DNA of 60,521 nt, from NCBI GenBank assembly GCA_018653605.1, contig JABHYY010000034.1:1-60521 (forward strand). The letters are read 5' to 3'. This stretch comes from an archaeon (lineage in GTDB: Archaea > Nanobdellota > Nanobdellia > SCGC-AAA011-G17 > GW2011-AR17). Within the stretch, counting starts at the first letter, position 1. Every line of letters starts with the position of its first letter. The notes beneath the pieces were generated by a model. That model was not told where the DNA came from. It was given only the letters and a program-made list of their open reading frames with translations, and did not search any database. A program made the translations under genes and the position numbers. Below, piece by piece: positions 7,258 to 51,927 of this stretch.

Positions 7258-7490
7258 AAAAATTGATTGTGTCCGAAATGAATTAATAAGTCTACATCCC
7301 TTTCTGGTATATCACAGGCACCAAAGTTTGAATTGAGATGAATGAAGATTTCTGCTTTTGTATTTTTTTTAAGATGATCAACTATTTCAGTTGCTTTTGG
7401 TTTTAATCCATCTGGTAACTGGATTAGTACTGTCTTTGCTTTTGTGTTTTCTATTTCTTTTACTGCTTTTTCTAGTTCTAGGTTGTACAT
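7254..7490 (-). pseudogene. dph2: Truncated diphthamide synthase Dph2 (N-terminal fragment)
   Basis: 78 residues that match only the first domain of archaeal Dph2: LELEKAVKEIENTKAK, VLIQLPDGLKPKA, the first cluster cysteine in FGACD, and DLLIHFGH. A normal protein is roughly 330-350 residues with three cluster cysteines. After IHFGHN the frame stops (QFF, TAA), and the DNA beyond holds an intact gene on the other strand, so the rest is not nearby in another frame. Dph2 starts translation-factor EF2 diphthamide synthesis by a radical SAM reaction; this piece cannot do so alone. It is either a decaying remnant or a repurposed domain. Confidence 0.75.
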
Positions 7491-7533
7491 AGGTTTTTTA
7501 GAGTAAATTTGTGTTTTTATATCTTTTGGCTTG

Positions 7534-7866
7534 CTATTTTAGGCTTTGAATCCTTTGGTATTGGTCTTCTGTGATGTCTTCTACTCTTGCTATTTGGGAA
7601 ACTCTTTTGAATGTTGGGTGGCTTATTTTTGATTGAGCTTGTTCAAAGATTTCTAACAATTTTTTTCCTGCTGGTACTCTCCTTGTTTCTCTTTCTGTTA
7701 TACCATCAAGTTGAATCCCAAGACTTGTTTCATGAGCCACTATTCCTACTCCTACTTTGTATATATTCATGTGGGTTTTTTGATTATGGTTTTGAGGTGT
7801 GTTGTTATAAGTTGCAGGTTTGCCTTCTCTTCCTACTTGCATTAAGTATGCTATGTGTTTTGTCAT
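7534..7866 (-). CDS. Hypothetical protein
   Basis: 110 residues from MTKHIAYLMQVG; the 15 residues upstream in frame look like leader sequence. The C-terminal half (KKLLEIFEQAQSKI...EDITEDQYQRIQSL) is helical. It is similar in size and position to the gene upstream at 7902-8195 and may form a pair with it. Function not recognised. Confidence 0.5.
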   Translation of the reverse strand: MTKHIAYLMQVGREGKPATYNNTPQNHNQKTHMNIYKVGVGIVAHETSLGIQLDGITERETRRVPAGKKLLEIFEQAQSKISHPTFKRVSQIARVEDITEDQYQRIQSLK

Positions 7867-7901
7867 AAAAATTAAAGAAAACTTGGTGTTTAAAAAAGTT
7901 G

Positions 7902-8195
7902 CTAAGCACACTCTTTTCTTTTGGATTTATTGACTACTGCTTGATACTCTGCTTGTGCAATTCCTGATAGTGTTGGTTCTCCAAATGAGATTTCTGAATT
8001 AGGTTTGTGATTAATGGCTCTTACCTTTCCTTGATTTAAAATATCTAAAGGTCTTCCTGTTAGATTTGTTTCTATTTCAAATATTTCATCTAAATAAATT
8101 ATTGTTCCTTCTGGCCTATTTATGATTGCAACACCTGCTGTGTATTTTTTAGAGCCTTTTGAAGGGATTAAGTATTCGACATATTGTGTTACCAT
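7902..8195 (-). CDS. Hypothetical protein
   Basis: 97 residues, MVTQYVEYLIPSKGSKKYTAG at the start. The pattern of short beta strands (GVAIINRPEGTIIYLDEIF) followed by a basic tail suggests a small beta-rich domain. No family assigned. A gap of 35 bases separates it from the next gene on the same strand. Confidence 0.5.
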   Translation of the reverse strand: MVTQYVEYLIPSKGSKKYTAGVAIINRPEGTIIYLDEIFEIETNLTGRPLDILNQGKVRAINHKPNSEISFGEPTLSGIAQAEYQAVVNKSKRKECA

Positions 8196-8219
8196 AGAAA
8201 AAAGTTTAATATTTAGTGT

Positions 8220-9833
8220 TTAAAAAAGTTCTGAAAGATTAAGTTCTAGTGCTGCAACAGGGAATTCAAGTCCAAAGTTCTTTAATACTTTAGGATTTAC
8301 TTCTCCGATGTATGCTACTTCTTTCCCTTTTACTGTAACTCTGCCTGTTCTACCCTCAATAAATGAAGAATGTTTTGTTGATGTTACTTTGTATTTTAAA
8401 TCAAGCATTCTCATTAAGTAATCTAAAACTTGTTTTATTTTTGTGAAATTAGCATTTGAATCACACAAAACAATTGCAAGTCTGTCATTCTCTATATTTG
8501 TTTTAAAAACTCTTCCAATTGTGAACAGGTTTTGTGGATAATCATAATGTTTGTTTTCTTCTAATATTTGTAACATGTTTGGAAGTACCCATGCTCTTAG
8601 AACATTGTACTCTTGGCTTACTGAATTTTCTAATGGGATTAAAGATATTTTACAATCCATTTTTTTTGTTTGAAGTTGATCATTAGTGATGTTATAGGTT
8701 TCACATTCTAAAAGTTGCAAGCCCACTAATATTTCTGAAACTTTTCTTTTGAATATTTCAAATTCATCTTCTTTTCCTATTGTTGAAACATTTGGTATTT
8801 CTGGACTAAAGTTTTCATAACCATAAGCAATTGCAATGTCTTCTATGAAATCAACTTGGTGCATGATGTCTGCTCTGTATGCAGGAACTGAAACTTTTCC
8901 TTTTTCATAATCAAAACCCATTTTTTCTAACAGAGTTTTCATTTGTTTTTCTGTTAAATTTAATCCTAACCTTTGGTTGATGTATTTGATATCAATATCC
9001 CATTTTGTTGCTTCAAGGTTTGGAGTGATTATTGGTTTTTCATACTTGACTTTTGTTTCATGGATAGTTCCACCCATGTCTGCTAATGCTGTTACAATGA
9101 TGTTTAAACATTTTTTTTGTGTTTCAAGCTCAAATCCACTCACTTCAATGAAAACTTCTTTTGTTTTTTCTGAAACTTTGCCTGTTTTCTCTGAGTTAAT
9201 TATAGGTGGCATAGAAAGTATTTCTTTGTTTGCATCTCTAAATATAGGATAAAGCTTTTTTCCTTCTAAAAGGTATGCATATTCTCTTCCTGTTGGATGC
9301 TGTTGTAGTATTTGTAAGCCATTTAGTTCTTTTTTTGATTCTAATGGTTGGAATTTGATTTCTCTTGGTTTAAGTGCTAAATAATCTATTGGAAATTTTA
9401 TTTCTTCCATAGGATATATGCCAATAGCACCTTTTTTTCTGTTTCTTAATAGGGTGACATGTAACTTTTCTTGAATTTGAATTATTTCTCTTATTTTTTC
9501 ATCATTTAGTTTTAGATTCTTTACTACTGCACATGCTGTGTATGGTCTAATATCTTTTACTGATTTGTCAATGTTTACTTCATATTTGGATTTGTTAACT
9601 TTGTATTTTCTTAAACCTGTTTTTATTCCCATGAATGAAGAAAAAGCTCTTGCAAAACCTTGTTCAGAAAGCATGTCTGGTCTGTTTGGGAATATTTCTA
9701 CTGTGATTTCATTGCCTTCAATATCTTCTAAGTCAGTTCCAAGCATTGAAATTCTATCTTTTAGTTTTTCAATAGGTAGTTTCTTTCCTACTAACTTTTC
9801 AAATACTGTTTTGTTTAGTTTTACTGTTGGCAT
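8220..9833 (-). CDS. pheT: Phenylalanyl-tRNA synthetase beta subunit (archaeal type)
   Basis: The 537-residue beta chain partners PheS to charge tRNA-Phe. The start (MPTVKLNKTVFEKLVGKKLPIEKL) and NRPDMLSEQGFARA are typical of the archaeal/eukaryotic beta subunit, which lacks the bacterial EMAP-like N-terminal domain. A B5-like DNA-binding-fold domain appears around residues 270-340 (INQRLGLNLTEKQ), and the C-terminal core includes ENSVSQEYNVLRAWVLPNML. It starts 2 bases after the pheS stop, a classical pheST operon. Confidence 0.95.
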   Translation of the reverse strand: MPTVKLNKTVFEKLVGKKLPIEKLKDRISMLGTDLEDIEGNEITVEIFPNRPDMLSEQGFARAFSSFMGIKTGLRKYKVNKSKYEVNIDKSVKDIRPYTACAVVKNLKLNDEKIREIIQIQEKLHVTLLRNRKKGAIGIYPMEEIKFPIDYLALKPREIKFQPLESKKELNGLQILQQHPTGREYAYLLEGKKLYPIFRDANKEILSMPPIINSEKTGKVSEKTKEVFIEVSGFELETQKKCLNIIVTALADMGGTIHETKVKYEKPIITPNLEATKWDIDIKYINQRLGLNLTEKQMKTLLEKMGFDYEKGKVSVPAYRADIMHQVDFIEDIAIAYGYENFSPEIPNVSTIGKEDEFEIFKRKVSEILVGLQLLECETYNITNDQLQTKKMDCKISLIPLENSVSQEYNVLRAWVLPNMLQILEENKHYDYPQNLFTIGRVFKTNIENDRLAIVLCDSNANFTKIKQVLDYLMRMLDLKYKVTSTKHSSFIEGRTGRVTVKGKEVAYIGEVNPKVLKNFGLEFPVAALELNLSELF

Positions 9834-23058: not shown

Positions 23059-23343
23059 ATGACTCAGAATAGAGAATTTGCTTTGGAAGCTTGTTTGGAA
23101 TTTTGGAATGATTATTCTGGTGCTATTCTAGGGTTAGGTTATCTTTTGAGTAAGGATTCGTTGATGATGGAGACTAAAGGGATTTCTATTGTTGCTACTA
23201 TTAGGCCTGCTTATTCTCGTGATATGTTAGAAGAGTTTAGAAAAGTTTTACCTAAAGAGTATGAGTTTAAAGGCGAAGTATTTCCTGTTAAAATTTTCCC
23301 ACCTGTTGCTAGTTTGGCTTTAGATGATCTTTTTGAACTGTAG
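23059..23343 (+). CDS. Hypothetical protein
   Basis: 94 residues, soluble, with an alpha/beta pattern (GISIVATIRPAYSRDMLEEFRKVLPKEYEF). Not recognised. Its TAG stop lies inside the 27-bp element at 23339-23365, so the element supplies the gene end. Confidence 0.55.
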   Translation: MTQNREFALEACLEFWNDYSGAILGLGYLLSKDSLMMETKGISIVATIRPAYSRDMLEEFRKVLPKEYEFKGEVFPVKIFPPVASLALDDLFEL

Positions 23344-23365
23344 TCAGAGCTTATACTGACCCTAT
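23339..23365 (+). repeat. Dispersed 27-bp element, copy 3
   Basis: Plus-strand orientation (GTAGTCAGAGC...ACTGACCCTAT); its reverse complement fits RTAGGG-TCAGTATNNGCT-YTGACTACW. It contains the stop codon of the preceding gene and marks the left edge of the accessory zone. Confidence 0.6.
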
Positions 23366-23378
23366 AATAAAAGTGGTT

Positions 23379-27485: not shown

Positions 27486-27588
27486 TTTTCTTAAAAATTG
27501 CGTACAACCTTGTTAGTTGCGTCTGCAAGACCAAGGGTTAGTGCAACGGTCGGCAAAGCCGAAACCCGCAGAGTTAAGAAAAAAGTCC
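27486..27588. repeat. Cassette junction A
   Basis: Order: inner arm of cassette 0 (27486-27497); GTACAAC box, CTT spacer, GTTAGTTGC box (27512-27520); a hairpin closed by TCTGC/GCAGA (27522-27572) with nested GGGTT/AACCC and TCGGC-AAA-GCCGA; inner arm of cassette 1 (27574-27588). The spacer is CTT where most junctions have GAT. Confidence 0.7.
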
Positions 27589-27624
27589 GTTAACTTTATA
27601 TTCTGTTCCAATTTATTCTTTTAT

Positions 27625-28146
27625 ATGAGTTTTTCAAATAAAGATAGAGAATTTATGAATCTTGCTTTAGATGAAGCGAGAAAAGCATTAGATAATGGAG
27701 ATTATCCTGTTGGTGCAGTTCTTGTTATTAATGGAAAGTTAATTGAAAAAACAAGAAATTCTCTTTATTCTGGAAAAGACTGGGTTTCTCATGCTGAATC
27801 AAATTTAATTAGAAAATGTTCCCCAATAATAAAAGAAGAAATCAAATCTAATAATTCAAAAGTAGAATTATTTACAACATTAGAACCTTGTCTTATGTGT
27901 TTAGGTACTTCGATTTTAAATAGAATCTCTAGAATTGTTTTTTCATGTCCTGATCCGCATGGTGGTGCAACAACTTTAGATAAACAGAGTTTATCTGATT
28001 GGTATAATCGAAAATGGCCAATTATTGAAGGGGGGCTATTTAAAGATGAATCTTATGATTTAATGATTGATTTTATGAAAAAACAAAACACTGATTCATG
28101 GAACAGAATATTGAAAATGTATGAAGATATGCATAAAGATTGGTAA
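27625..28146 (+). CDS. Cassette 1 gene: cytidine/guanine deaminase-family protein
   Basis: 173 residues from the ATG at 27625, 26.5 bases after the centre of CTTTATAT. Zinc-dependent deaminase signature: HAESN (zinc His and catalytic Glu) and EPCLMCLGTSIL (two zinc Cys). The N-terminal FMNLALDEARKALDNGDYPVGAVLV is typical of the TadA/guanine deaminase group. The substrate could be a free nucleobase, nucleoside or tRNA adenosine. Its flanking arms are a perfect 15-base inverted repeat (27574-27588 and 28147-28161). Confidence 0.87.
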   Translation: MSFSNKDREFMNLALDEARKALDNGDYPVGAVLVINGKLIEKTRNSLYSGKDWVSHAESNLIRKCSPIIKEEIKSNNSKVELFTTLEPCLMCLGTSILNRISRIVFSCPDPHGGATTLDKQSLSDWYNRKWPIIEGGLFKDESYDLMIDFMKKQNTDSWNRILKMYEDMHKDW

Positions 28147-28223
28147 GGACTTTTTTCTTAATTGCAACTAACGATGTTGGGTGACCCGAAGGGCGAATTC
28201 TGAAAGAATTCGAGTTGGTGTCC
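28147..28223. repeat. Cassette junction B
   Basis: Inner arm of cassette 1 (28147-28161), GCAACTAAC box (28164-28172), GAT, GTTGGGTGA box (28176-28184), a hairpin CGAATTC-tgaaa-GAATTCG (28194-28212), and the inner arm GGTGTCC of cassette 2 (28217-28223). GCAACTAAC is the exact complement of GTTAGTTGC in junction A. Confidence 0.75.
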
Positions 28224-28259
28224 GATAAATTAAAATACTTTGTTTACTTCTATTTTTTT

Positions 28260-28517
28260 ATGGCTTTGAATGAATTAAAAAAAGAGGTTGCTAAGTTTGA
28301 AAAGAAAGTTGGTTTTGATAAGACTAAATCCTCTGAACTTCTAAAAATGTTGCAGAAGGAATTAACAATCTTAAAGAAGGCTAAAAATAAAAAAGTTAAA
28401 GATCATCAATTGATTGATATCCAAGTTTTACTTCTTCAACTTGCAAATAGATATAAAACCAACTTGAACTTAGAATGGAAGAAACAGTGGAATAAAAAGC
28501 AGAAATATAAAAAGTGA
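28260..28517 (+). CDS. Cassette 2 gene: MazG-like helical protein (degenerate)
   Basis: 85 residues from MALNELKKEVAKFEKKVGF. The length, the helical pattern and the end (LIDIQVLLLQLANRYKTNLNLEWKKQWNKK) look like the MazG-type nucleotide pyrophosphohydrolase fold. The metal-binding acidic pattern EExxE...ExxD is mostly lost (QKELTIL, HQLID), so activity is doubtful. A TTAAAA box about 27 bases upstream serves as promoter. Confidence 0.55.
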   Translation: MALNELKKEVAKFEKKVGFDKTKSSELLKMLQKELTILKKAKNKKVKDHQLIDIQVLLLQLANRYKTNLNLEWKKQWNKKQKYKK

Positions 28518-28518
28518 A

Positions 28519-28633
28519 GGACACCTATTTCACCCAACGATGTTAGGTTCCCTCTCGAGATAATGAGCGAAGTGAACACTCCTTGAATGTCAACTGATTG
28601 AATTGAGTGAAGGAGAAGTTAAAAAGGAAAATT
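28519..28633. repeat. Cassette junction C
   Basis: Inner arm GGACACC of cassette 2 (28519-28525), TCACCCAAC box (28530-28538, exact complement of GTTGGGTGA in B), GAT, GTTAGGTTC box (28542-28550), an insert with TGAGCGAAGTGAAC and a CTCCTT/AAGGAG stem, then the A-rich inner arm of cassette 3 (28619-28633). Confidence 0.75.
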
Positions 28634-28661
28634 TATAAATAATCTATAAATCTCCTAAAAT

Positions 28662-28967
28662 ATGATAAATGAGGATATTGAAATACTTTTTGCAAAACTT
28701 CCTGAAGGTTCTAGGTTTAGAGAAGTAGATAATATTGAAATGATTGCTGAATTTTTTACTTGGTCTGGTATTGCTTGGCATCATTTGGTTTTATGTGAAA
28801 CAGAAGAAGGTACTGTTACTTGCCATTTGGCTTGTAAGGACTGGAAGTTGGAATATATTCTTCAACGTGGAGGATATGAAATAGATGTTTCAAATTGGAG
28901 AGGAAAAAGTCTTAGATTTAGGGAAGTTTATAATAAACCTTCTGATCAACATTATTTTATTAATTAA
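28662..28967 (+). CDS. Cassette 3 gene: hypothetical protein
   Basis: 101 residues, acidic N-terminus, with CETEEGTVTCHLACKDW in the middle and an amphipathic strand-rich second half. Not recognised. TTTATAAA is centred 26.5 bases before the ATG, predicting a leaderless mRNA from a promoter inside the cassette. Confidence 0.55.
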   Translation: MINEDIEILFAKLPEGSRFREVDNIEMIAEFFTWSGIAWHHLVLCETEEGTVTCHLACKDWKLEYILQRGGYEIDVSNWRGKSLRFREVYNKPSDQHYFIN

Positions 28968-29074
28968 TTTCTTTTTTAATTGTGTACAATGATGTTGTAT
29001 TCCTCTCGAGATAGTGAACGGAGTGAACGATTTCCTGAGAGGTCCGAGCATAGTGAGAAAGTCAGAGAAGATTC
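28966..29074. repeat. Cassette junction D
   Basis: Inner arm of cassette 3 (28966-28979), GTGTACAAT box (28982-28990), GAT, GTTGTATTC box (28994-29002), a hairpin closed by CCTCTC/GAGAGG (29002-29042) with GAACGGAGTGAAC in the loop, and the inner arm of cassette 4 (29062-29074). Its left outer box does not match that of junction C, so this junction has drifted or was formed by an irregular event. Confidence 0.65.
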
Positions 29075-29110
29075 GTAAACCTTATATTGAATTAAGTATT
29101 AATAGTTTAT

Positions 29111-29314
29111 ATGGATGAACTATATCAAATACTAACCTTTACTTCAGATTATCTGGGGTGGGGAATTTCTATTGGAAGTTCTGTAGCTATGTTGGGAATA
29201 GTGTATAAATCTGCAAGAGAAAATAATAGGTGGAGGGAAGATAATCGAGAATTTTTACAGAGTCTTCCTAGATTAGAAAAGAGAGTTGATAATCCTAGAA
29301 TTTTTTCTGATTGA
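29111..29314 (+). CDS. Cassette 4 gene: small membrane protein
   Basis: 67 residues with one membrane helix (YLGWGISIGSSVAMLGIVY) and a charged, basic cytoplasmic tail. TTATAT is centred about 26 bases upstream. The TGA stop overlaps the outer box of junction E. Function unknown. Confidence 0.55.
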   Translation: MDELYQILTFTSDYLGWGISIGSSVAMLGIVYKSARENNRWREDNREFLQSLPRLEKRVDNPRIFSD

Positions 29315-29421
29315 GTCTAACGATGTTAGGTTCCCTGTCCTCGATATTTTGGAGTGAAACGGAAAAATATCAGAGCTGACAGGTCCGGAATCCCGGAGGG
29401 ATGGAGGAAGTTTAAGGAGGG
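29298..29421. repeat. Cassette junction E
   Basis: Inner arm of cassette 4 (29298-29310), GAGTCTAAC box (29313-29321), GAT, GTTAGGTTC box (29325-29333), a long stem with CCTGTC/GACAGG and GATATTTT/AAAATATC around GGAGTGAAACGGAA, then the inner arm TTTAAGGAGGG of cassette 5 (29411-29421). Confidence 0.75.
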
Positions 29422-29467
29422 AGTTTTTGTTACTACCAAAAAGTTTATAAATAATGGTTTTTTCCTA

Positions 29468-29758
29468 ATGAAGATGACAATCAGAGGACAAACACCAACT
29501 ATTATAGAACTTGTAAATACAGTGGAGTCTTTAGGTATTCTAAAAAAAACAGAAGCAGAAACCAATGCTTTGCTTGATTCAATGGGTGCAAGAGCAGAAT
29601 TTGATCAGTTTAATAGATATGTGAGAGATACTGTTGGTGGTGCAGCAGAGCTTGTTTATGCATATGCTAGTGAAGAAGGAATTGGTTACTTTGCTGAATT
29701 GTTTACTAAAGTTAAAGGTAAACCATTTGATCAAGACGAAGTGGTAGTTAGAAGATAA
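29468..29758 (+). CDS. Cassette 5 gene: hypothetical protein
   Basis: 96 residues from the ATG at 29468 (MKMTIRGQTPTIIELVNTVESLGI). The upstream in-frame stretch is part of the junction structure and is rejected. Helical, with an N-terminal half like a small DNA- or protein-binding helix pair. TTTATAAA lies about 20 bases upstream. Not recognised. Confidence 0.55.
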   Translation: MKMTIRGQTPTIIELVNTVESLGILKKTEAETNALLDSMGARAEFDQFNRYVRDTVGGAAELVYAYASEEGIGYFAELFTKVKGKPFDQDEVVVRR

Positions 29759-29806
29759 ACTTTTCTATTTTATTCGAACAACTTTAGTTGTAAGTCTATA
29801 TATTTT

Positions 29807-29870
29807 CCCCTACTTAAATTGAACCTAACGATGTTGGGTACTGAGCGAAGCGAAGGAACAGTAAATTTCT
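29807..29870. repeat. Cassette junction F
   Basis: Inner arm of cassette 5 (29807-29818), GAACCTAAC box (29821-29829, exact complement of GTTAGGTTC in E), GAT, GTTGGGTAC box (29833-29841), a short hairpin TACTG/CAGTA around AGCGAAGCGAAGG, and the inner arm AAATTTCT of cassette 6 (29863-29870). Confidence 0.78.
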
Positions 29871-29882
29871 AAGGGAGGGAGG

Positions 29883-30224
29883 TTAAACTTCCTTAAATTC
29901 TATTTCAATAGTTTTAAAGAATTCTTGTGTAAATTTGACTGCTGTATCAACATCAAAATTCTTACAAGTGTAAATATCAGCACTGAAGAATGGAAATGGC
30001 TTATCCCAAGCATAAAAATGACAACCAGAAGATTCCCAATGTATCCATCCTGCCCATCCAAATTTAGATGAAAGATGAGTAACTGGTTCAGTTAGTGTTT
30101 TCATGTCTAATGCAGTTGATAACTTGCTTAGATATTCCTTTATTTCAGAATCAGTAATTTCTTTTTGACATTTGCCTTCAATAACTAATCTTTGTCGGAA
30201 TATCGTAGGAGATAAATCTTTCAT
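29883..30224 (-). CDS. Cassette 6 gene: hypothetical protein
   Basis: 113 residues from MKDLSPTIFRQRLVIEGKCQ. It has a clear fold-like pattern, with GWAGWIHWESSGCHFYAWDKPFPFFSADIYTCK rich in aromatic residues. Its layout (start, ESSGCH segment, C-terminal helix with VKFTQEFFK) is reminiscent of S-adenosylmethionine decarboxylase-like small proteins, where an ESS-type segment self-cleaves, but this is a weak resemblance. Opposite in direction to its neighbours, with a TTAAGATATAG box 26 bases upstream. Confidence 0.58.
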   Translation of the reverse strand: MKDLSPTIFRQRLVIEGKCQKEITDSEIKEYLSKLSTALDMKTLTEPVTHLSSKFGWAGWIHWESSGCHFYAWDKPFPFFSADIYTCKNFDVDTAVKFTQEFFKTIEIEFKEV

Positions 30225-30267
30225 ATATAACAAGAATTAACTATATCTTAAATGCTTTTGGGTGGGA

Positions 30268-30361
30268 AGAAATTTATTGTACCCAACGATGTTGTGTGAC
30301 TTTCTGGAGTGGAACGGAAGAAAGCTCGGAGAACCTAAGGTTCAGAGAGAGTTAAGAATTT
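30268..30361. repeat. Cassette junction G
   Basis: Inner arm AGAAATTT of cassette 6 (30268-30275), GTACCCAAC box (30279-30287, exact complement of GTTGGGTAC in F), GAT, GTTGTGTGA box (30291-30299), a hairpin CTTTC/GAAAG around TGGAGTGGAACGG, a GAACC-TAA-GGTTC stem, and the inner arm TTAAGAATTT of cassette 7 (30352-30361). Confidence 0.78.
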
Positions 30362-30402
30362 GACCGGAAAATATATAAGAAAGAAGAAAATTCCTTGCAA
30401 AT

Positions 30403-30657
30403 ATGAAAAAAACTGTTTATGAAGGTAAAAATGATGGCTTATTTGATTACACTAATTTTCTTCTATTTTTAGAAAGTAATGCTGGAGAAAGGGTAATAGA
30501 AAGAGTTGGAGAGGTATTTGTTTTTCATTTAACTTCTTTAGGAGTAACTGTAAAATATAATGCACCATATCATATTAAAAATTACATAAGTATAAATGCA
30601 TTTGGTGAAGAAAAACAAATTGGAAAACTAGAAGAAATGATTAGGGAAAATTCTTAA
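30403..30657 (+). CDS. Cassette 7 gene: hypothetical protein
   Basis: 84 residues (MKKTVYEGKNDGLFDYTNFLLFLESNAGE), mixed alpha/beta, unrecognised. An ATATATAA box is about 28 bases upstream. Its stop codon lies inside the right inner arm. It is the cassette nearest the recombinase. Confidence 0.55.
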   Translation: MKKTVYEGKNDGLFDYTNFLLFLESNAGERVIERVGEVFVFHLTSLGVTVKYNAPYHIKNYISINAFGEEKQIGKLEEMIRENS

Positions 30658-30668
30658 TTTCACACAAG
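30648..30668. repeat. Terminal junction H (right end of cassette 7)
   Basis: Inner arm AAATTCTTAA (30648-30657, exact complement of 30352-30361), then TCACACAA (30660-30667, complement of TTGTGTGA in G) and G in place of the final C. The next boundary reads ATTGGAT, a weak GTTRRRY. It marks the border between the array and the recombinase region. Confidence 0.65.
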
Positions 30669-30841
30669 GGTCATTGGATGTATTTACTTAGATTTTATAC
30701 TCTGACAACTATAAAACACCTAAATTCTAAATCTTATACATTAACATATTTTCATAAAACATGTAAACTTTCCATAAAACCTGAAAGATTTTCAGATTTT
30801 TTACACCTGTTATTATAAATTGATTTTTCTAAATCTTATTT
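30669..30841. other. Candidate attI-like / promoter region of the recombinase
   Basis: AT-rich region holding two near-direct repeats 20 bases apart (TCATAAAACATGTAAAC at 30752-30768 and CCATAAAACCTGAAAGA at 30772-30788) and the dyad CTGAAA-gat-TTTCAG (30781-30795). In integrons the primary site beside the integrase gene also carries direct repeats bound by the enzyme. The role here is inferred; these could equally be operator sites. Confidence 0.4.
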
Positions 30842-31663
30842 ATGGACTTAATACTAAATATGCAGAAAGAAATGTCAAGAAGAAGGTATAGCCAAAGAAC
30901 TGTTGACTCTTATTCTGACTGTGTTACAAAATTCCTAGAATTTTCAAAAAAAACCCCTAGAAAAATAACTAAAAAGGATGTTCGACTATATTTAACAAAA
31001 TTAGATGAAAGAAATCTTGCAAGTAGTACTATGAATGTGTATTTGCAAGCGATTAGATTTGCTCTTGAAAACATTTTGAATAAACATTTTATCCTAAGGA
31101 TTCCTCTCTCTAAAAAGTCAAAAAGACTGCCTGATTTTCTTACTAAAAAGGAGGTTAAACAACTGTTTAGTGTTATTAAGAATAAAAAACACCTTTTGGT
31201 TGTAAAGTTAATTTATTCAGCAGGATTGAGAGTTGGTGAGGCAGTAAAACTGAGAATAAGGGATTTAGACCTTGAAAGTGGCATTGGTAAGGTTGTTCAA
31301 GGCAAAGGAAACAAAGATAGAATGTTTATTATTGCAAAGAGCATAAGAAAGGAATTACAGCACTATATATACAGTGAAAAATTGGATTTTGGAGACTTTT
31401 TGTTTCAGGGTCGGAGAACACACTTTTCTGTTAGATCTGTCCAGGAAGTGGTTAAAAAGGCTGGAAAGAGGTCTAAAATACCTAAAAATGTCCATCCTCA
31501 TGTTTTAAGGCATTCATTTGCAACACACCTTATTGAGGATAATTGTAGTCTTTCAACTTTACAGCTTTTAATGGGTCATAAAAGTCCTGAAACTACAATG
31601 GTGTATGTTCATTTAGCTAAACTTAGCTCTTTAGATGTAACTAGTCCTTTAGATGGTTTATAG
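30842..31663 (+). CDS. Tyrosine recombinase (Xer/IntI-like)
   Basis: 273 residues. The SAM-like N-terminal core-binding domain (RRRYSQRTVDSYSDCVTKFLEF) is followed by the catalytic domain with R130 (SAGLRVGE), K155 (GKGNKDR), H220-x-x-R223 (HPHVLRHSFATHL), H246 (MGHKSPETT) and the nucleophile Y255. The C-terminal TSPLDGL closely resembles the SPLDAL tail of integron integrases, and archaeal XerA usually ends differently. However, the roughly 35-residue IntI-specific insert between the Lys and the HxxR motifs is missing. It lies directly beside the cassette array and points away from it. Confidence 0.92.
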   Translation: MDLILNMQKEMSRRRYSQRTVDSYSDCVTKFLEFSKKTPRKITKKDVRLYLTKLDERNLASSTMNVYLQAIRFALENILNKHFILRIPLSKKSKRLPDFLTKKEVKQLFSVIKNKKHLLVVKLIYSAGLRVGEAVKLRIRDLDLESGIGKVVQGKGNKDRMFIIAKSIRKELQHYIYSEKLDFGDFLFQGRRTHFSVRSVQEVVKKAGKRSKIPKNVHPHVLRHSFATHLIEDNCSLSTLQLLMGHKSPETTMVYVHLAKLSSLDVTSPLDGL

Positions 31664-35206: not shown

Positions 35207-35284
35207 TTTTTTAACACCTCGAATATTTTCTTTAGAACTATTCTATAATTATTTGTTAAATTTATGTTGTTTATAAGCTTTTTG

Positions 35285-35311
35285 GTAGGGTCAGTATTGG
35301 CTTTGACTACT
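35285..35311 (-). repeat. Dispersed 27-bp element, copy 4
   Basis: GTAGGG-TCAGTATTGGCT-TTGACTACT, close to the consensus. It overlaps the TAG stop of the CCA-transferase gene and lies just before the psmB promoter. Confidence 0.65.
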
Positions 35312-36503
35312 ATTTTATCTTTGTAACTCTGCTTGTGACGAATTTGTCTTTCTTTAGCTCTTTTATTAGGTGTTCTGGCTCTTTGTATTGTCTTTCAAGT
35401 ATTACATATGAAGAAGTTTTTGTTGTTTTTGCATTTTTCCATTTCTTTTGAAAGTGTTTTAACCTGTCTTTGTGTGTTGTTGGTGGGCCTAGGTGTTTTA
35501 CTGTTTTTGAAAGTTTTTTTGGTTCAATTGCATAGTAAAGTAAAGCTTGGTTGTCCCAGTGCCAGCCATGATCCTTCACTTCAAATTCATGTTTATTAAA
35601 TTGTTTTAAGAAGTATTTGTGTACCTTTAGTAGTTTTGCTCCAACTACATCTCTTTTACCTTCTAATGGATTGATGTCTATTGTTAGTAGTTTTTTGTGC
35701 TTTTTCTTTATTTTTTCTATATTGAATGGTTGGATTTGGAAATATTTTATGTTTGGTTTTCTTGTGTATGCTTTTGCTAGCTTTTTGAATAGGTTGTATT
35801 TTTCTTTTGAAACTACTGCTGTAACATTTCTTGTGTCTTGAACTGGATCAACTATAACTATTGGTGAAAATGTTTTTGATTTGTTCATTAAAATTAGTGG
35901 ATCTTCTTTGTAATGTTTTTCTGGGTCTAGAACTGTTTTTGTTTTCCATTTTGATACTGCTTTTAGTAGTTTGTTGAAACCTTTGTAATGGATTGTTAAT
36001 ATTTCTAGTGCGTATCCTGAAAAACCTTGTATGTATGATTCTGCACCATAGAGTTTGTTTGCTTTGCAGAAAGCTTTTGCAAGTCTAATCTGGTCTGTGT
36101 ACTTTTCGTGTTTTTTTACCCATTTTACATGGAATGGTGAGATGTCTGTGATGTTTTGTGCGTGTTCTGGTTTTTTTATGTCTAGGATTGGAATTAGTTC
36201 AATTGTGTAATTGTTTTTTTTAATATGGTAGTAGTCTCTGGAACCATGCACTGTTTCAAATTCAAATTTTAGGTTTTCTTTTAGAATGTGTGAAATGTCT
36301 AGTTCTCTGTATGTTTTTGGATCAAATTTAATGTACATGTCAATTTCATTGTTGCCTTTTAAGAAAGTGTTTTTTGCTGATGATCCACCAAATGTGATTC
36401 TTGTTTTTGGAATTTTAATTTTGCTTTTTACTTCTCTTGCTATTTTTTTTATTTCTGCTTGTTCTTTTTTATCTGGTTTGATAAGTTTTAATGCTTGTTG
36501 CAT
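35310..36503 (-). CDS. cca: Archaeal class I CCA-adding tRNA nucleotidyltransferase
   Basis: 397 residues from the ATG at 36503; a start 19 codons earlier would lie upstream of the probable TATA element. The polymerase motif is FGGSSAKNTFLKGNNEIDMYIKF (GS...DxD-type metal site), with VKWVKKHEKYTDQIRLAKAFCKANKLYGAESYIQGFSGYALEIL following, typical of archaeal CCA transferases. The three tRNAs here lack encoded CCA, so this enzyme is needed. Confidence 0.94.
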   Translation of the reverse strand: MQQALKLIKPDKKEQAEIKKIAREVKSKIKIPKTRITFGGSSAKNTFLKGNNEIDMYIKFDPKTYRELDISHILKENLKFEFETVHGSRDYYHIKKNNYTIELIPILDIKKPEHAQNITDISPFHVKWVKKHEKYTDQIRLAKAFCKANKLYGAESYIQGFSGYALEILTIHYKGFNKLLKAVSKWKTKTVLDPEKHYKEDPLILMNKSKTFSPIVIVDPVQDTRNVTAVVSKEKYNLFKKLAKAYTRKPNIKYFQIQPFNIEKIKKKHKKLLTIDINPLEGKRDVVGAKLLKVHKYFLKQFNKHEFEVKDHGWHWDNQALLYYAIEPKKLSKTVKHLGPPTTHKDRLKHFQKKWKNAKTTKTSSYVILERQYKEPEHLIKELKKDKFVTSRVTKIK

Positions 36504-40346: not shown

Positions 40347-42353
40347 TTATTCTGTATTGTCCTCCCAACTTGTACAGTCTGGGTCCTGTTTGTAATCTGT
40401 TAATCCATCACCATCATTATCACTATTATCACCACACTCTGGTTTTATCTCTAAACATTCTTCTTCTGTTTCTTGTGGTTCTTCAGGTGGTCTTTCTTCT
40501 TTGTTATACTCATCATTATCTTCCCAAGATAAACAACCTAAGTCATAAGGGTAATCAACTAAACCATCTTCATCATCATCTAAACCATTGCCACATACTG
40601 GTTTTATTTCTTCACATTCTTCTTCTGTTTCTTGTGGTTCTTCTGGTGGTCTCTCTTCTTTGTTATACTCATCATTATCTTCCCAAGATAAACAACCAGG
40701 ATCATTAGGGTAATCTACTAAACCATCTTCATCATTATCTTTACCATCACCACAAACAGGTTTAATTTCTTCACACTCTTCCTCTTCTTCTTCAGGTGGT
40801 CTTTCTTCTTTGTTATACTCATCATTGTCTTCCCAGGATAAACAACCTGGATCATAAGGGTAATCTACTAAACCATCACCATCATTATCTTTGCCATCAC
40901 CACATACTGGTTTTATTTCTTCACACTCTTCCTCTTCTTCAATTACATTAAACTCATCATTATCTTCCCAAGATAAACAACCAGGATCATAAGGATAATC
41001 TACTAAACCATCACCATCATTATCTTTGCCATCACCACATACTGGTTTTATTTCTTCACACTCTTCCTCTTCTTCAATTTGATTAAACTCATCATTATCT
41101 TCCCAAGATAAACAACCAGGATCATTAGGATAATCTACTAAATCATCATTATCATTATCTTTTCCATCACCACAAACAGGTTTTATCTCTTCACACTCTT
41201 CCTCTTCTTCAATTTGATTAAACTCATCATTATCTTCCCAAGATAAACAACCAGGATCATAAGGATAATCAATTAAACCATCACCATCATTATCTAATCC
41301 ATCACCACATACAGGTTTAATTTCTTCACAATCTTCAGTTGGTTCTATAATTGGTTCTTTACAGTCTTGTGGACAAATATTAAAATTTTCTTTTTTATCA
41401 CAAACACCATCACCACATTCTCCAGTAATGTCTGGAACTGTTACTTCACAATCTGTTGGACAATCTTCATTAGAATCACAAATACCATCACCACAAACAC
41501 TTACATAACAATCTGTTGGACAGTCTTCATCAGAATCACAAACACCATCACCACAAACACTCACATAACAATCTTCTGGACAATCTTCATCACTATCACA
41601 AACTCCATCACCACAAATTGGATCTGTTGTAGTGGTTGTTGTTGTTCCTCCTCCACCACTTGAGCTTGAACCTCCACTACTGGAAGTGCTATCTGATTCT
41701 GTTGCATAGTAAGTTTTTTCTACACACTCATTATCTTCACACTCTTCATCATATTCACAATCATCATCAGTGTAACATTCTTTTTCTGTTTCTGTTGTTG
41801 GAGCTTCAAAAATTTCTTCTATACAGTTTTCATCAATGTAACCATCACAGTTGTTATCAATCCCATCATCACAGACTTCTGATGTTGCAGGGTTGATAGA
41901 AGGGTCTTCATCATCGCAGTCCATGTCAATACAATATCCATCTAAGTCAAAATCTGTACAAGCTTCAGGGGCTGTATAAGGTTCAGAACTTAAATAAAAA
42001 CCTGCCATGACTAGGCATAAAAGTATAACCAATGCAATAACTGCAACCATTGCATATTTGAATGTTTTGTTAACAAACCTTGAGAAAGCATGTTTTACCA
42101 CTTCTGTACTAACTTTTCCTGATTTTACATCAGGTGCATTAACTACTGAAGTTTTTATTTTTTCAATATTATAACCTTTGTCTAAGGAATTTTTAATAAA
42201 AGTAATTAGGTAATCTTCTTGTAAAAGTTTTAGAACTTCTTGTTTAGGGTGGCCTTTTTTAATTAACTCTGTAGCTATTTGATCATACGATGTTCCGTGT
42301 TCATGTTGTTTTATTACTTCATCAACTAAGTCATTGTAAAGTTTCTGATCCAA
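40347..42353 (-). CDS. Membrane-anchored surface protein with tandem Cys/Asp repeats
   Basis: 668 residues. The N-terminal 95 residues are cytoplasmic and helical (SYDQIATELIKKGHPKQEVLKLLQ), followed by one membrane helix (VAVIALVILLCLVMAGFYL). Outside there is a MopE-like segment (DFDLDGYCIDMDCDDEDP...CDDGIDNNCDGYID), four Cys repeats of the form CGDGxCDxxEDCPxDC, and eight longer repeats built on PVCGDGKDNDGDGLVDYP...DPGCLSWEDNDE with acidic linkers. The repeats should bind calcium and be disulfide-bonded. It is a surface stalk; partner and role are unknown. Confidence 0.82.
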   Translation of the reverse strand: MDQKLYNDLVDEVIKQHEHGTSYDQIATELIKKGHPKQEVLKLLQEDYLITFIKNSLDKGYNIEKIKTSVVNAPDVKSGKVSTEVVKHAFSRFVNKTFKYAMVAVIALVILLCLVMAGFYLSSEPYTAPEACTDFDLDGYCIDMDCDDEDPSINPATSEVCDDGIDNNCDGYIDENCIEEIFEAPTTETEKECYTDDDCEYDEECEDNECVEKTYYATESDSTSSSGGSSSSGGGGTTTTTTTDPICGDGVCDSDEDCPEDCYVSVCGDGVCDSDEDCPTDCYVSVCGDGICDSNEDCPTDCEVTVPDITGECGDGVCDKKENFNICPQDCKEPIIEPTEDCEEIKPVCGDGLDNDGDGLIDYPYDPGCLSWEDNDEFNQIEEEEECEEIKPVCGDGKDNDNDDLVDYPNDPGCLSWEDNDEFNQIEEEEECEEIKPVCGDGKDNDGDGLVDYPYDPGCLSWEDNDEFNVIEEEEECEEIKPVCGDGKDNDGDGLVDYPYDPGCLSWEDNDEYNKEERPPEEEEEECEEIKPVCGDGKDNDEDGLVDYPNDPGCLSWEDNDEYNKEERPPEEPQETEEECEEIKPVCGNGLDDDEDGLVDYPYDLGCLSWEDNDEYNKEERPPEEPQETEEECLEIKPECGDNSDNDGDGLTDYKQDPDCTSWEDNTE

Positions 42354-44929: not shown

Positions 44930-44946
44930 TATTTTTTTATTTTTTT

Positions 44947-44973
44947 ATAGGGTCAGTATTTGCTTTGACTGCT
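44947..44973 (-). repeat. Dispersed 27-bp element, copy 6
   Basis: ATAGGG-TCAGTATTTGCT-TTGACTGCT, nearly identical to copy 4 (35285-35311) in all three parts. It lies between a lipoprotein gene and the tRNA thiolase gene, about 40 bases past the thiolase stop. Confidence 0.65.
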
Positions 44974-45013
44974 TTATTTACATTGGTTTTACTGTTTTAA
45001 ACTGCAAGCTCTC

Positions 45014-51521: not shown

Positions 51522-51557
51522 CCACTGAGAAATTAATTTTAAGTTTTTAAGTATTGT

Positions 51558-51584
51558 GTAGGGTGATTATATGCTTTGACTACT
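51558..51584 (-). repeat. Dispersed 27-bp element, copy 7
   Basis: GTAGGG-TGATTATATGCT-TTGACTACT. The receiver-gene stop codon (TAG, 51580-51582) lies within it. Confidence 0.6.
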
Positions 51585-51927
51585 TTGTTAGTAATTTAGC
51601 TAGTGCATTTAGATAGACTTCAGATACTAAGGGCTTTCCAAACCTTACTAATCTGCCACTGTACTCTGGATCTGCCTCTGCACTTCCAGAAAGAATCATT
51701 ACTGGTGTTGTGTATCCTGCTTCTTGCATTTTGTCTATTAACTCTATCCCACCCATTCCAGGCATATCTATATCTGTTACAACTATGTCAATTCCACCTT
51801 GTGCAAGAATATCTAATGCTTGTTGACCTTCTTCTGCTTCTACTACTTTATAGTCTCTTGCTGTAAGCATTCTTCTAGAAGCTGACCTTAAACCACTATC
51901 ATCATCTACAACTAATATTTTTGACAT
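51580..51927 (-). CDS. CheY-like single-domain response regulator
   Basis: 115 residues, a complete receiver domain: acidic pair at D8-D10, phospho-acceptor D52 (VVTDIDMPGMGG), S80 in MILSG, and K98 in RFGKP. No output domain, and no histidine kinase gene in this window. Two-component parts are scarce in small DPANN genomes, so it may have been gained. Target unknown. Its TAG stop is provided by the 27-bp element. Confidence 0.92.
   Translation of the reverse strand: MSKILVVDDDSGLRSASRRMLTARDYKVVEAEEGQQALDILAQGGIDIVVTDIDMPGMGGIELIDKMQEAGYTTPVMILSGSAEADPEYSGRLVRFGKPLVSEVYLNALAKLLTK

Follow-up and report, generated by a model that had tools for sequence, protein, structure and literature searches.

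A tyrosine recombinase without the I2 insert as the probable dedicated enzyme of an archaeal integron-like cassette array

The recombinase gene and the array upstream of it

The window, that is, the whole stretch of DNA that was analysed (60.5 kb), lies on a contig that carries thermosome, archaeal-type proteasome beta and aCPSF1 genes, which mark the contig as archaeal. It contains an open reading frame for a tyrosine recombinase of 273 aa (Phage_integrase match of 128.4 bits in a Pfam scan), a probable attI site and an array of junctions and cassettes (Table 1). The array consists of seven one-gene cassettes, six of the genes being forward and one reversed, and all seven junctions share one orientation, as in the tandem array of an integron. 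The seven junctions were detected in the 60.5 kb with E values of 4.4e-6 to 1.7e-3 by the site model R1 (filters off), which was trained in part on these same junctions, and only two further matches were obtained elsewhere in the window, with E values of 0.19 and 0.54. A looser site pattern gave 19 matches in the window versus 9.8 ± 3.0 in shuffles. Junction 4 may be a later event, since the outer ends of cassettes 3 and 4 match each other when compared by eye. A further cassette, starting at W25899, was probably based on a false site and was excluded from the later pairing set along with two duplicates.

Table 1. Coordinates of the junctions, cassettes, attI-like site and recombinase gene in the window
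Feature	Position	Strand	Basis
Junction 1 (left arm, centre CCTTG, right arm)	27497..27521	+	site model
Junction 2, centre CGATG	28161..28185	+	site model
Junction 3, centre CGATG	28527..28551	+	site model
Junction 4, centre TGATG, irregular: flanking cassettes pair poorly in core	28979..29003	+	site model, pairing
Junction 5, centre CGATG	29310..29334	+	site model
Junction 6, centre CGATG	29818..29842	+	site model
Junction 7, centre CGATG	30276..30300	+	site model
Cassette 1, nucleoside deaminase gene 27625-28146, ends complementary	27513..28171	+	
Cassette 2, 85-aa gene of no assigned family 28260-28517, ends complementary	28177..28537	+	
Cassette 3, 101-aa gene of no assigned family 28662-28967, core ends not complementary	28543..28989	+	
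Cassette 4, 67-aa gene of no assigned family 29111-29314, core ends poorly complementary	28995..29320	+	
Cassette 5, 96-aa gene of no assigned family 29468-29758, ends complementary	29326..29828	+	
Cassette 6, S-adenosylmethionine decarboxylase-like gene 29883-30224 on minus strand, ends complementary	29834..30286	+	
Cassette 7, 84-aa gene of no assigned family 30403-30657, ends complementary	30292..30667	+	
Probable attI: left arm AATTTCACACAA (= last cassette's end), centre GGGTCA, worn right arm TTGGATGTATT	30656..30684	+	pairing with cassette 7 start
Group A tyrosine recombinase without I2 insert (P0001)	30842..31663	+	sequence, alignment, trees, AlphaFold model

An earlier note on this DNA had described the enzyme as complete in its catalytic residues and devoid of the IntI-specific insert, and our analysis bore out both statements. 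The catalytic set R130, K155, H220, R223, H246 and Y255 is complete and was invariant across nine aligned rows of the group of homologues to which the enzyme belongs (group A, see below). Alignment with the Vibrio atypicus IntI (L074) showed that the stretch from the KDR motif to the HxLRH motif lacks the insert, and the match to the best solved relative, 2a3v (IntI4), fell into two pieces that flank the gap of the missing insert; the window recombinase thus lacks the I2 that defines an integron integrase in the IntI sense. Its score with the integron integrase model TIGR02249 was 192.4 bits (curated cut-off 265), and the best NCBIfam model was that of archaeal XerA, with 215.9 bits, just below the cut-off of 220. 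The protein ends in SPLDGL, which the same note had likened to integron integrases. The motif is present as stated, but since SPLDxL or near variants also terminate many non-IntI recombinases (L045, L048, L056, L057, L058), it is no marker of IntI. A confident AlphaFold model (pLDDT 88.9) was used in a structure search, in which the nearest solved folds were the integron integrase 2a3v (Z 24.8) and XerA 5hxy (Z 23.2), with XerH also among the nearest; the search resolved no class beyond the recombinase family itself.

Two other features of the window were recorded. A repeat of about 45 nt resembling GTAGGGTCAGTATTGGCTTTGACTAC is scattered through it in both orientations, at 1259-1303, 23340-23372, 35279-35323, 44941-44985 and 51552-51596, and the minus-strand ORF 40347-42353, which perhaps encodes a calcium-binding repeat surface protein, contains tandem repeats of 135-159 nt.

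Junctions, attI-like site and complementary cassette ends

The left arm of the probable attI pairs with the start of cassette 7 (core 6/7). At the recombinase genes of relatives, whose homologues fall into three sets, namely group A, a XerA-like group B and a distant group C, we observed the recurrent motif TTGNNNNTAA - 6 nt - ATATACG, usually on the 5' side. With a leave-one-out attI profile, built on examples initially chosen by eye, scores of 14.1 or higher were obtained at 15 of the 21 group A loci, where an attI thus lies beside the integrase gene as in integrons, and at 1 of the 41 loci of groups B and C, the hit there being a dif-like palindrome; the window's own site scored 4.6 and was missed. 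The profile replaced a loose regular expression that matched 20/21 A loci but also 22/30 B and 8/11 C loci. At L025, L026 and L031 the motif was found on the 3' side of the recombinase, reversed and at the contig end, and at 6 of the 19 loci surveyed for the motif the sequence runs out within 300 bp towards attI, an effect expected of repeats. Group B genes with dif-like palindromes directly upstream, e.g. CACGCATATAATGTGTGTTATATGCGTG, were seen at L207, L208, L215 and L236, and the right arm of the group A attI matches one dif arm of the group B palindromes.

Farther out than attI, the junctions of relatives have the consensus AATTGNRYYTAA - C..TG - TTRRRYNCCC. The regular expression TAAC..GTT missed relatives with other centres, and those sites were recovered with a repeat finder and a profile. 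In nine pairs of junctions that agree by 94% or more on the left and differ on the right, the likeness stops directly after RYYTAA and no pair has its centre in common. The cassette boundary is therefore placed at AA^C or AA^T. This agrees with integrons, for which PMC4792948 locates the crossover between A and C; the boundary would thus match the integron AA^C cut. Where the right side was at least 90% alike (nine pairs), the centre was common to five, so the centre does not always accompany the right side. Centres also vary in sequence and in length (5 to 7) inside one genome.

We compared the start of each cassette (right arm, hairpin) with its end (left arm plus preceding sequence), using either its own ends or ends swapped within the genome. 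Own ends paired in 5.05 of 7 core positions versus 3.90 ± 0.17 for swapped ends, and the outer stem scored 33.9 versus 28.7 ± 0.84; in neither case did any of 10,000 permutations reach the observed value. The two arms of one junction paired no better than random (3.8/7, n = 38, permuted 3.9). Over 8 consecutive core pairs, of which the first two are AA/TT by construction, the Watson-Crick fraction per position was 0.68 to 1.00 in 59 distinct cassettes (0.35 to 1.00 when swapped within the genome) and 0.73 to 1.00 in a tight set of 49. Compensatory changes were found in the core, e.g. at position 3 with G-C in 19, T-A in 10 and A-T in 10 of the 49 cassettes, and such end-to-end covariation is what is expected of a structure-conserved site of the integron kind. 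The 8-bp core is followed by a conserved C-T mismatch at positions 8 and 9. The sequence of the outer stem is arbitrary, and a cassette's own partner was the best one in 18 of 49 cassettes, with 1 expected. A hairpin is present on one side only, between the right arm and the outer stem. Similar results were obtained with 18 cassettes from 8 of 20 new loci, where the own partner was best or tied best for the core in 16 and for the outer stem in 12 (0 of 10,000 permutations). In the window, cassettes 3 and 4 (two of the seven), which flank junction 4, fail the core pairing. Folds predicted for the joined ends of 16 hand-picked cassettes out of 62 had a common plan of outer stem, core hairpin and at least one side hairpin.

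If the enzyme is dedicated to the cassettes, as argued below, we lean towards a route in which one strand is recombined in folded form. A cassette would be excised as a circle, and its joined ends would fold on one strand into the outer stem, the side hairpin and the 8-bp core stem closed by a centre of 3-4 nt. The enzyme would cut AA^C on this strand and join it to double-stranded attI, and replication would complete the insertion, as in integrons. Having no I2 to hold extrahelical bases, it would read the arm sequence and the branched fold; the obvious asymmetry that it could use in place of the I2 contacts is the hairpin found on one side only, where core and outer stem meet. As to which strand folds, G-T pairs numbered 30 versus 13 A-C pairs in the core (p 0.21) and 88 versus 39 in the outer stem, where swaps gave 389 versus 278, so that the excess in the outer stem is only suggestive of a choice.

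The main rival to a folded substrate is recombination of ordinary double-stranded dif-like sites (11-6-11) in the manner of Xer, the complementarity of cassette ends then reflecting palindromic arms plus a separate role of the outer stem. The attI resembles dif, with the left arm TTGNNNNTAA, a 6-nt centre and the right arm TATATGCG or ATATACG; the same arms occur in the dif-like palindromes beside group B XerA; arms and 6-nt spacing fit the archaeal dif plan as given in the part of PMC8371274 that was available; and XerA and XerH are among the closest folds. Moreover, in the canonical geometry a second enzyme occupies the right arm, beyond the centre; this arrangement suits double-stranded DNA and is at odds with a cut in a hairpin loop. 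We nevertheless regard this reading as the less likely one. Centres differ in sequence and length within one genome, and therefore identity of the overlap is not kept; the arms covary within a cassette and not within a junction; arbitrary outer stems with a one-sided hairpin pair as well; and the mismatch at positions 8 and 9 is not predicted by binding alone.

Kinship, distribution and arrays at relatives

Group A, whose members gave 366 to 475 bits with the group A profile, was recovered as a clade both in tree 1 (SH-aLRT 100; 21 group A rows, rows shorter than 200 aa having been removed and the B, C and reference rows then thinned from 140 to 85) and in tree 2 (100/100; 12 group A rows out of 45). 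A single clade of A and B was rejected by the AU test (p-AU 0.0017), and a grouping of A with IntI was not (p-AU 0.237). The label 'IntI-like', which the enzyme had been given earlier, overstates the kinship, even though the AU test allows a grouping with IntI: IntI forms its own clade, and other insert-less enzymes stand closer to it than group A does. Among these is a recombinase on an Undinarchaeales contig (L045), nearest to IntI in the trees (96/87, tree 2), where two insert-less recombinases lie in tandem. In a Firmicutes MAG (PGZN01000027.1, 235-5959), an insert-less recombinase belonging to a clade other than group A lies 3' of five classical-looking attC-like pairs (RYYTAACGCCTATTGGCTAAACG ... 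CGTTTAGCCTGTTGTTAGGY). Viral and phage relatives of the window recombinase had best identities in the thirties.

Group B occurs in most genomes of the order. A group A gene with a score of at least 382 bits was detected in 27 of the 103, the next score down being 303; one of the 27 is interrupted by an internal stop codon, and two further genomes hold broken copies. In a sample of the phylum, 62 of 279 genomes contained group A at E ≤ 1e-100, exactly one copy each, a few of these genes with one internal stop codon; the members named include one Aenigmatarchaeota MAG and one Nanoarchaeota MAG. None of the 279 genomes had an IntI above the curated cut-off (TIGR02249, E 1e-72), which detected 4/4 positive controls. 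These results bear on the proposal that the gene is the housekeeping XerA, lying near the array by chance, which the earlier note had kept as a fallback. The proposal draws on the XerA model being the best NCBIfam match, if below its cut-off, and on the homologue search having found no group B gene in the source genome. We consider it very improbable: group A is a separate and patchily distributed clade that did not group with the XerA of relatives in either tree or in the AU test; it is not the sole Xer-type gene of the source genome, which has a second one on contig C11 (148 bits with the XerA model) and a weak third match below the cut-off; and attI and array adjoin the genes of relatives in other orders.

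Relatives share a package of dif-like attI, recombinase and single-gene cassettes. At 20 extra loci from other orders, which were outside the training of the site model, 29 of 33 sites lay upstream on the strand of the recombinase; of the other four, one was downstream on the same strand, and zero and three were on the opposite strand. No array was found near the Patescibacteria loci L049, L053, L059 and L062 or the Undinarchaeales locus L045; a cluster of three site matches at L049 was judged to be chance. At L034, positions 7298-8487 (counted on the reversed strand) contain 70-bp units without genes, made up of site and hairpins only, in three identical copies.

Across all cassettes examined, 38 ORFs face one way and 35 the other, and a role of the folded ends in mRNA is therefore unlikely. 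The 62 cassette proteins scanned matched 63 Pfam families, each of the 25 families listed occurring in at most two proteins, and PADLOC gave one weak match for 10 cassette proteins. One entire cassette is 78% identical over 687 nt between two families, and two species of one genus (G007 and G010) resemble each other from attI across the recombinase and further on, while their cassettes differ; the shared cassette and the turnover within a genus bear only indirectly on excision and insertion. A reading of the cassettes as transposon-like elements in tandem, with TTAGGY...RCCTAA as terminal inverted repeats, a target duplication as centre and an unrelated recombinase nearby, would agree with the inverted repeats at their ends and with the CGATG centre of five of the seven window junctions, and is hardly credible given that the two flanks of one cassette often differ in centre (L244, L247), that sites keep to the upstream side and strand of the recombinase (29/33), and that no transposase common to the cassettes was found in the Pfam families listed.

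We conclude from the sequence evidence that the gene probably codes for a recombinase dedicated to an integron-like cassette array of its archaeal host. The suggestion made earlier, that the enzyme serves the array and recognises its sites in another way, fits well with the finding that members of the clade adjoin an attI-like site and same-strand arrays. Close homologues are not always next to similar arrays: at least two sites were detected in 16 of 29 group A genomes of the order (two pseudogenes included) and fewer in the other 13, compared with at least two in 16 of 74 genomes without group A, counts obtained with a site model trained mostly on A-linked arrays. Several observations speak against the proposed explanation: the arrays in these 16 genomes without group A, the 13 group A genomes with fewer than two sites, the two window cassettes that fail the core pairing, the centres that do not accompany the right side, and the wear of the window attI, which made the profile miss it.

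Relation to known systems

With integrons, including archaeal ones (PMC9668308), the system shares a recombinase gene with adjoining attI, mostly one-gene cassettes of one orientation with varied functions, RYYYAAC and GTTRRRY boxes, the AA^C boundary, structured sites, and the occurrence of arrays also without a recombinase. It differs in the lack of I2, in the dif-like attI, and in cassette genes (38 and 35 ORFs) of both orientations. The archaeal IntIs of PMC9668308 are stated there to carry the IntI-specific domain; three of six were put aside because that domain was short or incomplete. The site geometry is also unlike classical attC, in line with what had been noted for the junctions: a classical attC lies whole at one cassette end in the order RYYYAAC - hairpin - GTTRRRY, whereas here it is split, half at each end, with the core boxes adjacent (3-4 nt apart) and the hairpin outside. 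Archaeal XerA/dif resembles the system in fold, length, related sequence and the dif-like attI, and group A differs in being a separate clade of patchy spread with arrays instead of a single site. The dif (pdif) modules of Acinetobacter plasmids are likewise gene modules bounded by Xer-type sites. These modules are moved by the housekeeping XerCD, and the orientation of their sites alternates. The present array has neither of these features and shows a dedicated enzyme, one site orientation, an attI and folded ends.

An integron-like subgroup of recombinases in which the insertion is not fully conserved is mentioned in the accessible part of PMC8138268, where the insertion is described as essential for integron function and no split-site array is described. 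We found no account of this system in the literature searched, from which most subscription papers and all preprints were out of reach. In the part of PMC4792948 available, I2 is presented as the innovation by which folded single-strand sites became usable, which poses a chicken-and-egg problem, neither I2 nor attC being selectable before the other. With a natural array that combines structured sites and an I2-less enzyme, this problem becomes testable, and such an array may show how gene-capture systems work, or began, without I2. The system would probably escape surveys in which the IntI-specific domain or a classical attC is a requirement, and archaeal gene capture may therefore be undercounted. 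We put forward, as a tentative reading of the sequences, an I2-less integron lineage spread over the archaeal phylum, in which a Xer-like enzyme would recombine folded split attC sites on one strand and which may have arisen independently from Xer/dif or before IntI gained I2. If this is true, the lineage would supply the unrecognised integrases of some archaeal arrays listed as integrase-less and would explain how selection could act on folded cassette sites when there was as yet no I2.
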